The notes under the pieces: generated by a model
The model's input: only the letters and a program-made list of their open reading frames with translations
The model's database searches: none
Told to the model about the DNA's origin: nothing
Shown: piece after piece, positions 58,022-64,000 of the stretch
Position numbering within the stretch: position 1 is the stretch's first letter
How the letters are laid out: each line of letters opens with the position of its first letter
Program-made: the position numbers and the translations under genes
Source: Peptococcaceae bacterium CEB3
GTDB taxonomy: Bacteria > Bacillota > Desulfitobacteriia > Desulfitobacteriales > Desulfitobacteriaceae
Reading direction: 5' to 3'
Assembly: GCA_001029295.1 (NCBI GenBank)
Contig: LDXJ01000048.1
Coordinates: 1-64,000, forward strand
DNA: 64,000 nt

Positions 58022-58045
58022 TTGGTATACCTCCGATCCTATATC

Positions 58046-58190
58046 TCTTGTATCCCAAGTATCCCTTGTGTCTCTTGTATCCCTAGTATCTCTAGTATGT
58101 TTTGTATTCCTTGTATTTGTGTTACTTGTGTTGCTTGTGCTACTCGTATTCCCCGTATTACTTGTATGTCTTTTATCTCGTCTATCTTTT
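58046..58190. repeat. Degenerate 9-bp tandem repeat array
   Basis: About 16 imperfect copies of a nine-base unit (CTCTTGTAT, CCCTAGTAT and similar on the plus strand; minus-strand ATACAAG-rich) lie between two genes transcribed to the left. Some forward frames stay open across it because the unit is three codons, but they encode only low-complexity sequence. Confidence 0.85.
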
Positions 58191-59189: not shown

Positions 59190-59265
<76 letters not shown>

Positions 59266-59627: not shown

Positions 59628-59925
59628 GCAAACACAGACCAAGACCCGGATGCCTCAGCCGATAGGTTTCGGATGCTGGTCCATATCAGAGGCTATTTTC
59701 GCATTGTTTCTGATCATTCCATTTCCGAATGGCTGGGGCTGCCTCCGTGGCTGATTAGATGGTCGCTGTCGCGACATTGTTCGCCCGGGGGCTGACGGGG
59801 ACTCTTTATTTATCGGTGTGGGCGACGTCGCCGGTGGATGGGCAGGAATAGAGCACATTCGCTCGTGTTAGAACAGGCTTTTTGAGGACAAAAGGGCCCA
59901 GAAAGATGGCGTCACGCGAGGGAAG

Positions 59926-61107
59926 CTACACTACAGAAGACATTCTCTGAGATAGTTGACCCTCCGTGTAGCCAAAGTGCCAAACCTTTTCACTTGAGCA
60001 AGCTGAATACCAAATGCGCAACGTGTGTGAACTCCCGGGTTCCCGAACAAAACTACTGCGGTAAATATAACCGTTGTCCCATTGATTTCCGGTGCCCCGA
60101 CGAAGAAGTGGTTCCGCAAGGGGCATGCTGAGTTCTTTGGGGTTTGACATGGGTGCGGTGGCATAGAGCAGTTGACAATTTTCTATAGTGCCCTTCTTCG
60201 GCCAACCGGCAATCAAAAATTCGACGGTCTGTTCGAGATGATTGGGTTTTGCGGCGATGTGCCAAGGAATATAGCCGCCGTTCCAAGTATTCCAGGGGGC
60301 ATTGCAAGGTTGTGGAGAGCTCCAGATAAAGCCGTCACCCGATGTATACGAATGCATCGTCACGTTCCCGTCCGTTGTCCACATGTACCATTCCTTCGCG
60401 CTTTTACGCCAAACGGTTGGGGATAGGTCTAAGCCGGTCTTGAGGTCCCATTTTTTTTCGAAGCAAAGGATTTTGTTGCTTTGCCTATGGTTTGGAAAGA
60501 TTTTTTTGGCCCAGATTTTTTCAAAAGCACCCTCGCTATATTGGCGCCAATAAAGGATTAGCATGTTTTGATTTGGATCATAAATCAATTCTGGGTCCGA
60601 GTTATAGTTACGGTTGATCAAACCGAGCGGTCTTGGGACCAATGGATTTTTGATGCCGGGTGGATTATTCCACCTTAATCCATCTTCGCTCACCAAAAGA
60701 CTGGGATTTTCATGAGTGCTCCAAAAGTAAGGAAACGGTGTCAACGCCATCCAATAGCGGGATCCCCCCCAACTCTGAAGGCCATATTCGGTCTTAAAAT
60801 CAATGACGCTAGGGTGAACCGCCTGCCCGGACCGATCGTAGGTAGGTGTCACCATATATCTGGACGCATTCGCCATGTGTGTGGTAAAGAGGAGGTGTGA
60901 TGCGGAAGGCGGCGGAGAAACAGACTGTATTCTCTTGTGAGTTGTAGCGAGAAGCGGACCGGGCTGTTCAACGTTATGTCTCTCATCATCAACAAGAGGC
61001 AGATAGCGAAAATAAATATAACCAGCCCCAACCCCGAGTATGGTTCCCAGGAAATGCCGTCTCGTCATAAGGTGGGTTCTCTGTCGGGTACTCTTATCCG
61101 TTTCCAC
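59926..61107 (-). CDS. Exported five-bladed beta-propeller-like (glycosyl hydrolase-related) protein
   Basis: A 393-residue protein. A twin-arginine-type signal near residue 15 (MTRRHFLGTILGVGAGYIYF) suggests export. The mature part has repeated aromatic and aspartate-rich blades (HENPSLLVSEDGLRWNNPPG, NSDPELIYDPNQNMLILYWR, KEWYMWTTDGNVTMHSYTSG, DNGYIYRSSFVREPGSSHTL) like family 32/43 sugar hydrolases. The catalytic residues are not identified, so the substrate is unknown; polysaccharide binding or cleavage is likely. The GTG start has AGGAGG eight bases upstream. It is AT-richer than genes before the tRNA. Confidence 0.65.
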   Translation of the reverse strand: METDKSTRQRTHLMTRRHFLGTILGVGAGYIYFRYLPLVDDERHNVEQPGPLLATTHKRIQSVSPPPSASHLLFTTHMANASRYMVTPTYDRSGQAVHPSVIDFKTEYGLQSWGGSRYWMALTPFPYFWSTHENPSLLVSEDGLRWNNPPGIKNPLVPRPLGLINRNYNSDPELIYDPNQNMLILYWRQYSEGAFEKIWAKKIFPNHRQSNKILCFEKKWDLKTGLDLSPTVWRKSAKEWYMWTTDGNVTMHSYTSGDGFIWSSPQPCNAPWNTWNGGYIPWHIAAKPNHLEQTVEFLIAGWPKKGTIENCQLLYATAPMSNPKELSMPLAEPLLRRGTGNQWDNGYIYRSSFVREPGSSHTLRIWYSACSSEKVWHFGYTEGQLSQRMSSVV

Positions 61108-61514
61108 GTTTGCGGCCTCCTATAAAAGCTTTATCCCGAGCAAATACCATCTCGTCTCGTCCTGTTTAGGGAAAGGTTTAGGTGAGGTTGCGGTGGGAAT
61201 TCCGTATCCCTTACATATACTACCATCTGCTGGGGAATCCCGCAATAGTCATGTATCCATCTCCGTCATGCCCAAAGTAGCCAGATTTTGTCATAAGATA
61301 ACAGCGGCAAGTGAAAAAATCACAGCCGATGAGTCGACACCATCTTGGATACTGAAAAAGGTTTAGCATCAGGTGATTAAATTTGAAACCGTTGGGGCGG
61401 TTGCTAGTTTTCAGGGGTCTTACGGCTGTTTCGGCCGAGACGGAGAGTGTACTTATCCTCTTTCGAACGTCTAGTGCTTTTCATGGTATATGTTTTCTGA
61501 TAGGGGAAATTAAT
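61108..61514 (+). other. Intergenic stretch without recognised features
   Basis: About 400 bases. A short AACCG/CGGTT hairpin lies near 61390-61408 in ACCGTTGGGGCGGTTGC. I see no gene, promoter pair or repeat. Open frames here are short and start without ribosome sites. Confidence 0.5.
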
Positions 61515-61543
61515 CATGCAATATTTTGAGAGTGATTATATGG
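61515..61543 (+). repeat. Duplicated 5' end of the threonine aldolase gene
   Basis: These 29 bases, starting ATGCAATATTTTGAGAGTGA, are identical to 62975-63003, the first codons of the threonine aldolase gene. The preceding GGGGAAA-like ribosome site and the next about 12 bases are also similar. The reading frame then stops at 61620. Confidence 0.85.
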
Positions 61544-61960
61544 AGGGTGCCCATCTACAAGTGGGAGTGGGTCCCACGGATTGGCATCGCTGTTGTTGTA
61601 GTCGTTTTCGTTGTAATTAATATATTTGACAGTAGTAAGCCTCCTGTTTATACAATAACAGATGGATCCTTCTCAATATCTTCAGCTTATGGCCAAAAAA
61701 TCGATCTTTCCGATATCAAGGAAATTCAGCTGAAAGATTATTTGCCCGGAAGTTTATTCCGTACAAATGGTTTGGGCGCCGGTACTGTTCTAAAAGGCAA
61801 GTTCAGCTCAGATATTGGGAATGTGATTCTATATGTTAACACTTCCATTCCCGGATATATCTACATCAGAACCAAATCAGAACAAGTTATCCTTAATAAC
61901 CAGTCTAAAGAAAAAACGGAAGACCTGTACAAAAAGTTGAGCACCCAACTTTCGCAGTGA
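61526..61960 (+). CDS. Bacterial PH-domain membrane protein
   Basis: A 144-residue protein. One membrane segment (IGIAVVVVVFVVINIF, residues 19-34) is followed by a pleckstrin-homology-like domain (YTITDGSFSISSAYGQKIDL, LSDIKEIQLKDYLPGS, VILYVNTSIPGYIYIRTKSE, SKEKTEDLYKKLSTQL). Such domains are common in small bacterial membrane proteins of unknown role. The start is uncertain: a TTG at 61526 or GTGs at 61532 and 61547. The 5' end overlaps the copied threonine aldolase segment in another frame, so the original start may have been lost. Confidence 0.65.
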   Translation: MRVIIWRVPIYKWEWVPRIGIAVVVVVFVVINIFDSSKPPVYTITDGSFSISSAYGQKIDLSDIKEIQLKDYLPGSLFRTNGLGAGTVLKGKFSSDIGNVILYVNTSIPGYIYIRTKSEQVILNNQSKEKTEDLYKKLSTQLSQ

Positions 61961-62084
61961 CGAATTTACTGGGCTGGAGGAATGCTACCAGAACTACACT
62001 GAGACAGCGGCCTAAACAACGGTCTCGTGCATTTGCTATGGCGCGGTGGAACAACCATGGTATGTACATCCCCGGGGGGCATCC

Positions 62085-62585
62085 CTAGACTTCATAAGAA
62101 AAAATACTTTCCCTATAATCTTTGTCGCCAATAGCGCAAGGCTTTTCCTCCACTTCATTGCCACCTATCTTCTTATAGAAACGACAAGATGGATTTTGAG
62201 ATAAACAGGCGATGAGAAATCTCTTATAACCGTTTTTTCTAAAAGCACTTTTTACAGTAGTCACGAGTTCTCGTCCAATGCCTTCATTTTGATATTCATC
62301 TAAAACATAAAGCCCGTAAATTTCGCCGTAATTGGCATACTTCTCATCCCTTGCCCTTCCAAAGCTAGCGAATCCAACAATCTTTGCGTCATTTAGTGCC
62401 ACATAGATGTTCCCTTCAGAAATATTCTGTTGGAGCCGTGAAAGATATTTTTCGTTCCTCTCATCTAAAGAATCCAGATACGTGTTATCTACAATGCCGT
62501 TATATGTGGTTTTCCATGTCCGTACATTCACATAAGCTATCTCCGTTTCATCTCCGGATACAGCTTTACGGATTTCGTATTCCAT
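62085..62585 (-). CDS. GNAT-family N-acetyltransferase
   Basis: A 166-residue GNAT enzyme covering the whole fold: YEIRKAVSGDETEIAYVNVR, the core strand NIYVALNDAKIVGFASFGRA, the acetyl-CoA loop VLDEYQNEGIGRELVTTVKS and the late FLIACLSQNPSCRFYKKIGG. The acceptor is unknown. The ATG at 62585 has GAGGAG eight bases upstream; a longer frame to 62615 lacks this. It lies in the AT-rich tail of the window. Confidence 0.88.
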   Translation of the reverse strand: MEYEIRKAVSGDETEIAYVNVRTWKTTYNGIVDNTYLDSLDERNEKYLSRLQQNISEGNIYVALNDAKIVGFASFGRARDEKYANYGEIYGLYVLDEYQNEGIGRELVTTVKSAFRKNGYKRFLIACLSQNPSCRFYKKIGGNEVEEKPCAIGDKDYRESIFSYEV

Positions 62586-62863
62586 CGGAGTTCTCCTCTC
62601 TTTACCCCTACCCAAAGAAAAAGAACTGCTTAATTAACATTTCTGTTTACGTTATGCACTCTTAGTTCACCCATAGGCCGCCTAACCTACGGTTTTGTTG
62701 TACTGAGAGTGCGGGATATGTCCAGTATCGTGCTCTCTTCATCTGTATTATAGCCTAGAATAAAGCCACTATGCAATATCTAGAACGAACGCTCGGAGAG
62801 GGATTCGGTCCATCCAATTGAAGGGGCCAACTCAACATGGCGCTTTGCTCCCGGAAGTGGGCC

Positions 62864-62893
62864 TTGAGATACCTGTACTAATAGTGATAGAAT
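62864..62893 (+). promoter_or_regulatory. Putative promoter of the threonine aldolase gene
   Basis: TTGAGA (62864-62869), 18-base spacer, TAGAAT (62888-62893), giving a leader of about 75 bases. Confidence 0.5.
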
Positions 62894-62974
62894 GGATGAG
62901 GACATTCTCCAAGAAGTCATAAAGAAAGTTCAAGCGTCACTAGAAACTAAACGAAATAGGCGGGGAAACGGATT
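62892..62974 (+). pseudogene. Truncated 5' fragment of another gene
   Basis: From ATG at 62892 the frame reads MDEDILQEVIKKVQASLETK, an amphipathic helix like the encapsulation peptides at the start of microcompartment-associated enzymes, then runs out of frame into the aldolase gene. It may be the front of a gene cut by the same event that duplicated the aldolase start. The start overlaps the proposed -10 element, so it may not be translated. Confidence 0.3.
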
Positions 62975-64000
62975 ATGCAATATTTTGAGAGTGATTATAT
63001 GGAAGGGGCGCACCCCCTTATTTTACAGCGTTTACTTGAGACCAATATGGAGAAAACGCCGGGGTATGGAACAGATAAGTATTCCCGGAGCGCCAGGGAA
63101 AAAATCCGCAGAGCATGTGGCTGTCCGGAGGCTGAAGTCTATTTTATGGTTGGCGGAACTCAGACAAACGCCACCGTAATCAACTCTTTGCTTCACGCAT
63201 ATGAGGGGGTTCTTGCCGCGGATACGGGGCATATTAATGTGCACGAAGCCGGGACGATTGAGGCCGGGGGCCATAAAGTCTTAACACTTGGACAAACTTC
63301 CGGAAAGATAAGTGCGCAGACGGTGGCAAAATATATTGGCTTATTCAACAGCGATGTCAACAATGAACACATGGTGAGGCCGGGTTTAGTATATATTTCG
63401 CATCCAACTGAATATGGAACCCTATATACAAAAGCAGAATTGGAACAACTCAGAGCCGTGTGCCAAGAATATAAAATGCCCCTGTTCTTGGATGGTGCCC
63501 GTTTGGGATATGGATTGACGGCCGAGGGCACGGATGTGACATTGGAAGTAATAGCGGACAACTGTGACGTTTTCTATATTGGCGGGACCAAAGTAGGCGC
63601 GCTGTTTGGGGAAGCGGTTGTGATTACAAAACCAAATTTAATTCCTCATTTCTTTACGATGATTAAGCAACATGGCGCACTTCTGGCAAAGGGCCGTTTG
63701 CTGGGGATACAGTTCGATACCCTCTTCACGGACGACTTGTATAAGCGGATTTCTAAACATGCTATCCATATGGCTGAGAAACTAAAGAAGGGCTTGGTTG
63801 AGAAAGGGTACCGCCTTTATTTTGAGTCCCCTACCAATCAGCAGTTTGTCGTCTTGGAAAATGAAGAAATGGAGCGGTTATCCAAGAAAGTCTCTTTTGG
63901 CTTTTGGGAGAGTTTGGACTCCAATCATACGGTAGTTCGTTTTGCCACAAGCTGGGCGACACAGGAAAATGATATTGAAGAATTGCTTAAGAACCTTCAT
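62975..64000 (+). CDS. Low-specificity L-threonine aldolase (runs off the window)
   Basis: The frame is open from the ATG at 62975 to the last base, 342 codons, about the full family length, so only the stop may be missing. It is a fold-type I PLP enzyme: RSAREKIRRACGCPEAEVYF, MVGGTQTNATVINSLLHAYE, ADTGHINVHEAGTIEAGGHK, LFLDGARLGYGL (aspartate contacting PLP) and FYIGGTKVGALFGEAVVI (Schiff-base lysine). It splits threonine into glycine and acetaldehyde. A GGGGAAA site precedes the ATG. Its first 29 bases are duplicated at 61515. Confidence 0.93.
   Translation, partial: MQYFESDYMEGAHPLILQRLLETNMEKTPGYGTDKYSRSAREKIRRACGCPEAEVYFMVGGTQTNATVINSLLHAYEGVLAADTGHINVHEAGTIEAGGHKVLTLGQTSGKISAQTVAKYIGLFNSDVNNEHMVRPGLVYISHPTEYGTLYTKAELEQLRAVCQEYKMPLFLDGARLGYGLTAEGTDVTLEVIADNCDVFYIGGTKVGALFGEAVVITKPNLIPHFFTMIKQHGALLAKGRLLGIQFDTLFTDDLYKRISKHAIHMAEKLKKGLVEKGYRLYFESPTNQQFVVLENEEMERLSKKVSFGFWESLDSNHTVVRFATSWATQENDIEELLKNLH

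Follow-up and report, generated by a model that had tools for sequence, protein, structure and literature searches.

The start of a threonine aldolase gene in Peptococcaceae bacterium CEB3 is likely the site of an insertion or recombination event that took place through a shared start sequence, and this is the best overall explanation of the region. The analyzed stretch of 64,000 nucleotides (the window) lies on contig C48 of a genome assembled in 64 contigs. It was compared with G001, the one same-genus genome among the 61 genomes searched, and ancestry is read from this one comparison. In the simplest statement, the locus appears to be collinear with G001 except that 1,459 bp are inserted where the aldolase begins. 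An event of this kind had been proposed in an earlier note on this DNA, and it is supported by the uninterrupted site in G001 and by a piece of a dispersed repeat at the junction. The coordinates of the features are given in Table 1.

Table 1. Features of the aldolase locus and of the inserted unit (window coordinates)
Feature	Position	Strand	Evidence
Probable ancestral aldolase leader, stranded 5' of the insert	61356–61515	+	Match to G001 aldolase upstream DNA
Imperfect direct repeat of 51 bp, left copy	61503–61553	+	Repeat search
Left copy of the aldolase gene start, 40 bases	61516–61555	+	29 bases identical to 62975–63003
34-codon frame from the left aldolase ATG, stop 61618–61620	61516–61620	+	ORF list
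Inserted unit, 1,459 bp (exact ends not fixed within the repeat)	61545–63003		Continuous alignment of the joined flanks with G001
25-bp piece of a dispersed palindromic repeat	61554–61578	+	Matches in own genome and G001
Apparently 5'-truncated PH-domain gene (ORF given from TTG 61526)	61580–61960	+	ORF, homology, bPH_5
GNAT acetyltransferase gene in the insert	62085–62615	-	ORF, domain and homology
Part of a second dispersed repeat, within the insert	62656–62781		Genome matches
Imperfect direct repeat of 51 bp, right copy	62962–63012	+	Repeat search
Threonine aldolase (Beta_elim_lyase), intact; frame passes window end	62975–64000	+	ORF, domain and homology

The G001 aldolase is intact, is 84% identical to the window aldolase and stands in the gene order methyltransferase (LCM family), 145 bp, aldolase, thioredoxin-like gene. 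When the two flanks of the window insertion are joined at the end of the 29-bp repeat described below and aligned to G001, 377 of 460 columns are identical, with 4 gap columns in three gaps; the flanks are collinear and the site in G001 is uninterrupted. Positions 61356–61555 of the window match the G001 aldolase from -156 to +40 (84% over 200 bases), and the match is closest from approximately -35 to +40 (70 of 74 alignment columns, compared with 98 of 136 farther upstream). Before the ATG of the intact window aldolase at 62975, little beyond GGGGAAA is shared with the G001 leader. Because the 160 bp upstream of the copy at 61516 match the DNA that precedes the intact aldolase in G001, the surroundings of this copy are probably the ancestral ones. 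The aldolase at 62975 is preceded by other DNA, which is probably new there. The earlier note had the aldolase start copied to the front of the PH-domain gene; this direction is probably to be reversed, since the segment at 61516 continues into the DNA that matches the G001 aldolase leader. The locus that was split would then probably be that of the aldolase. The conservation of the old leader leads us to presume that it carries a promoter, and a scan of 61100–63100 for sigma-70-like promoters found none in 61356–61515 and two overall (3.9 expected by chance).

The exact direct repeat comprises 29 bp from the ATG (61516–61544 and 62975–63003), and each copy sits inside the imperfect repeat of 51 bp (86% identity). 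The recurrence had been placed at 61515 and is real, with its first base one position later; its distance of '1.46 kb' is 1,459 bp, GGGGAAA precedes both ATGs within the 51-bp repeat, and the copied frame, said to stop after about 35 codons, has 34. The 29-mer is the longest exact direct repeat of the window, and in 30 first-order Markov shuffles the maxima were 14–18 bp. On the whole 80-kb contig, the sole longer exact repeat is a tandem array with a 14-base period at C48:74447–74493. Codons 1–9 are identical in the two copies, and codons 10, 11, 12 and 13 each differ at the third position, where the left copy agrees with G001. If four changes fell at random among the 11 silently changeable codons, the chance of hitting codons 10–13 would be approximately 1 in 330. 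It is therefore plausible that recombination had its boundary in or near the 29-mer, and a simple recent duplication appears to explain the clustering less well. Alternatively, the start of the gene may just have evolved slowly. Between the intact aldolase and G001, codons 1–9 contain one silent and one replacing difference, and codons 10–13 all differ silently.

At the left junction, a 25-bp piece of a dispersed palindromic repeat is located between the aldolase homology and the PH homology. The aldolase homology of the left copy stops at 61555, so the overlap with the repeat piece is 2 bp, and the right end of the piece abuts the start of PH homology at approximately 61580. The sequence 61554–61578 has three further exact occurrences in the CEB3 genome and another two with a single mismatch, and in G001 it is found at a minimum of 17 places with 23 to 25 aligned bases (9 exact over 25), a lower bound as 40 of 68 candidates were scored. 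Its core is thus common to several unrelated places in this genus. The parent unit of approximately 116 nt has at least 47 matches in the CEB3 genome (40 of 114 candidates scored) and folds strongly (z of -5.9), and in the full unit the 25-mer starts within one base of the loop of the first hairpin. The unit is abundant in both genomes of the genus, where many copies lack one end or the middle. No match to Rfam was obtained at the gathering score for the window and six loci, and among 30 loci judged from ORF ends no consistent neighboring gene was seen.

The PH-domain reading frame (61526–61960, 144 aa) is open in a frame other than that of the left aldolase ATG, and residues 42–130 match bPH_5 (PF10882; E-value of 7.3e-6, 26.4 bits against a Pfam cut-off of 22.5). 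Among the 61 genomes, 19 contain a match to this ORF, including the CEB3 genome, and there are 24 matches besides the window ORF itself. Similarity to them starts at residue 15–41 (18–24 in 20 of them), with the exception of one tail fragment that starts at 114, and for this reason the PH homology is placed from approximately 61580. The earlier note had a PH-domain protein read over the copied segment: a frame is indeed open there, but it is no more than open across the segment, with the homology beginning outside it. We inspected 22 of the 24 relatives (one with two stops was omitted, and the tail fragment on contig C53 was examined separately). In 19 of the 22, the part in common follows 74 or more open codons (three of these 19 run to the edge of the fetched DNA), and the remaining three are short, with 49, 16 and 5 codons. 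By eye, the N-terminus of the window ORF is present in none of the 22. Since most relatives have an N-terminal part that is absent here, the window gene appears to be 5'-truncated. The earlier note had the 5' end of the gene swapped, and it is borne out in that the original 5' end has been lost; the comparison of N-termini that had been suggested as a check yielded, by eye and among these 22, no relative with the N-terminus of the window ORF.

Two larger paralogs in the CEB3 genome are 51% and 41% identical to the window ORF over the PH part and the preceding helix, and both carry an N-terminal DUF3784 (E-values of 9.8e-24 and 7.3e-21). The window ORF retains the last helix region and the PH part in the alignment and has no match to DUF3784, so it differs in this respect from DUF3784 plus PH-type membrane proteins (a composite label of our own), with which it has the PH part and the preceding helix in common. 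The bPH_5 profile gave no match to the two paralogs at E-values up to 1, and their link to the window gene is therefore one of sequence similarity. A literature search on DUF3784 returned no paper, and related searches gave none that bears directly on this case. A 3'-end fragment of a PH gene at C53:13795–13885 is 85% identical to the tail of the window gene and is located behind other sequence. Common start codons near the join are limited in the PH frame to TTG 61526, GTG 61532 and GTG 61547, and by eye none of them has a well-spaced ribosome site. The PH frame is most likely a decaying fragment that is probably dead, although it is still open.

Of the ORFs in the insert, only the PH and GNAT genes exceed 100 aa. 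Matches to the GNAT protein at an E-value of 1e-15 occur in 10 of the 61 genomes, including its own, none of them close (the best is 39% identical); a second GNAT gene of the CEB3 genome (C45:56987–57463) encodes a protein that is 37% identical to it. The second dispersed repeat in the insert has four other places in the CEB3 genome at 74–77% identity and one in G001. A short ORF from 62892, 5' of the aldolase, looked like the start of another gene and was discarded, as it had no other match in the CEB3 or G001 genomes and no Pfam match. Direct repeats at both ends of the unit (29 bp exact), with the aldolase frame intact, are as in an integrative element, but no encoded integrase is present among the ORFs longer than 100 aa, and neither an integrase nor a transposase was seen when these ORFs were classified by domain together with one shorter frame. 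No inverted repeat pair typical of a transposon was found at the two ends, and a search for a donor with 61554–62974 in plasmid and phage collections gave no match at an E-value of 1e-5. The search for a mobile element that could have copied the segment, which the earlier note had recommended, therefore yielded a piece of a dispersed repeat at the junction and no mobilizing enzyme within the insert.

How the 29 bp came to exist twice we infer from the insertion relative to G001, the direct repeats, the repeat piece at the junction and the truncated PH gene. The starting state would have been that of G001, with the leader directly followed by the aldolase. A unit of 1,459 bp would have entered at the aldolase start, leaving a start on both sides (29 bp exact, 51 bp imperfect), with the old leader and the first 40 bases retained in the left copy and the intact gene start joined to a new upstream region in the right copy. 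Most likely, a piece of DNA that already carried a short aldolase start recombined with the chromosomal gene via the 29 bp, in the manner of a single-crossover integration. In this incoming piece, the PH gene would already have lost its front at the palindromic repeat, which would have been joined to the aldolase piece with the 2-bp overlap. Several observations count against integration. The 11 bases that follow the 29-mer in the left copy match G001 at 11 of 11 positions and the resident aldolase at 7 of 11, whereas a crossover in the 29-mer would have brought these bases in with the insert. In addition, the donor was not found, the classified ORFs of the insert include neither an integrase nor a transposase, and the short form of the PH gene is not unique to this junction (3 of 22 relatives).

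Integration through the shared start is nevertheless favored over a tandem duplication with deletion, and the latter over a target duplication. A tandem duplication of the aldolase, after which the first copy was deleted save for the leader and 40 bases and other DNA was brought in between, is possible but rather unlikely. It would account for the start being present twice in one orientation, and partial gene conversion would explain why codons 1–9 are identical and differences lie beyond them; it requires more steps, however, and no second aldolase was detected in the CEB3 genome at an E-value of 1e-20 (G001 has one), where the first 73 residues as a query find only the left copy and two weak matches. 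We regard as quite unlikely a staggered-break insertion or transposition-like step that duplicated approximately 41–51 bp of target, as direct repeats do flank the insert but the copies differ at 7 of 51 positions (86% identity), clustered outside the 29-mer, and neither a transposase among the classified ORFs nor an inverted repeat pair at the insert ends accompanies them. A target duplication of this length would also be unusual. That the 29- and 25-bp repeats let non-neighboring pieces be joined in assembly is improbable: the genome is a draft of 64 contigs and both repeats are located at junctions, yet the join of the aldolase start to the repeat piece overlaps by 2 bp only, so that no repeat forces it, and joining at the 29-mer would merely excise the unit.

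The earlier note had raised the possibility of a chimeric leader that still recruits ribosomes. That the aldolase leader drives the truncated PH protein and loads ribosomes for it, as a selected new gene, is very improbable. The PH frame is open for 144 codons and the leader is conserved at the 70 of 74 columns given above, but the leader ATG is out of the PH frame, that frame has weak starts only, the gene lacks its N-terminal domain, and the conservation can predate the break; no support for selected reuse of the leader was found in this analysis. Chance or convergent identity of the 29-mer can practically be dismissed, as the shuffles reached at most 18 bp and the homology extends into the G001 aldolase leader. 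As with the chimeric leader, we consider it very improbable that the unit of 1,459 bp can excise as a small cassette with the aldolase start as its attachment site. If it could, a crossover between both 29-bp copies would restore the old leader to its place before the aldolase, which could then switch between two upstream regions, and the PH fragment would be under the old leader in the inserted state.

The favored integration resembles several known systems in part. Compared with single-crossover (Campbell-type) integration or short-homology insertion in bacteria, the locus likewise contains an extra segment between direct repeats of the target and one junction with a 2-bp overlap, and it differs in that no donor molecule was found and the exact identity spans only 29 bp. 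Some integrative elements insert into the 5' end of a protein gene and supply it with a replacement start. Here too, the right copy has another upstream region, and the aldolase frame and amino acids are kept with silent changes, but no integrase was seen in the 1.46 kb, which carry a truncated gene and a GNAT gene as cargo. The unit of approximately 116 nt, which we take to be a dispersed palindromic intergenic repeat of the REP/MITE/PATE-like kind, has in common with such repeats that it is short, multi-copy and strongly folding and that a piece of it lies at a junction; unlike them, it has no mobilizing protein linked to it here and no Rfam match in the loci searched. The region is a clean worked case of a bacterial locus that was split and patched, in which the native leader was stranded, the gene start survived at the opposite end of the insert, and a dispersed palindromic repeat marks the point at which a PH gene was beheaded. 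For annotation, the start at 61516 is not to be taken as that of the PH gene itself, and the present upstream region of the aldolase is to be treated as probably new. It is otherwise an ordinary scar of genome rearrangement, and its wider importance is small.

On a larger scale, positions 59922–61147 of the window match G001 at 2.88 Mb, and the window up to 59348 matches G001 at 3.39 Mb. The counterpart of the methyltransferase that precedes the G001 aldolase is found on another contig (C45:62542–63422), where similarity to G001 stops at the stop codon and the second GNAT gene is approximately 5 kb away. A tRNA-Ala(CGC) is located at 59190–59265 of the window. In G001 (C1:3374616–3390800), tRNA-Ala(CGC) and a partial second copy of it bracket approximately 16 kb, and a gene for a phage-type integrase (PF00589) adjoins the partial copy; this stretch is likely an integrated element that is absent from the window. 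Because the left side of the locus differs from G001 and these 16 kb are bracketed by tRNA-Ala, the aldolase can be said to border a variable region. Replacement of the aldolase by a foreign gene was also considered, and no sign of it was seen: its fourfold-site difference to G001 is 47/123 (0.38), similar to that of its neighbors (11/27 for the thioredoxin-like gene, 55/129 for the last gene of that stretch and 34/90 for the relocated methyltransferase). Genes of the 3.39-Mb block are less diverged from G001 (approximately 0.13–0.28 in the main frames).

Among the best 80 of 342 aldolase relatives in a collection of genome contigs, identity reaches 68%, and many of them come from gut and rumen Clostridia and Bacteroidales. 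In 24 of the 35 searched genomes from other genera of its family, a homolog is 44–49% identical, and a partial copy with 83% identity is located at a contig end in a genome of another family (G058). This distribution suggests horizontal transfer of the aldolase. Finally, positions 58044–58115 of the window contain an array of nine-base tandem repeats, whose open frames would read as hydrophobic repeats.
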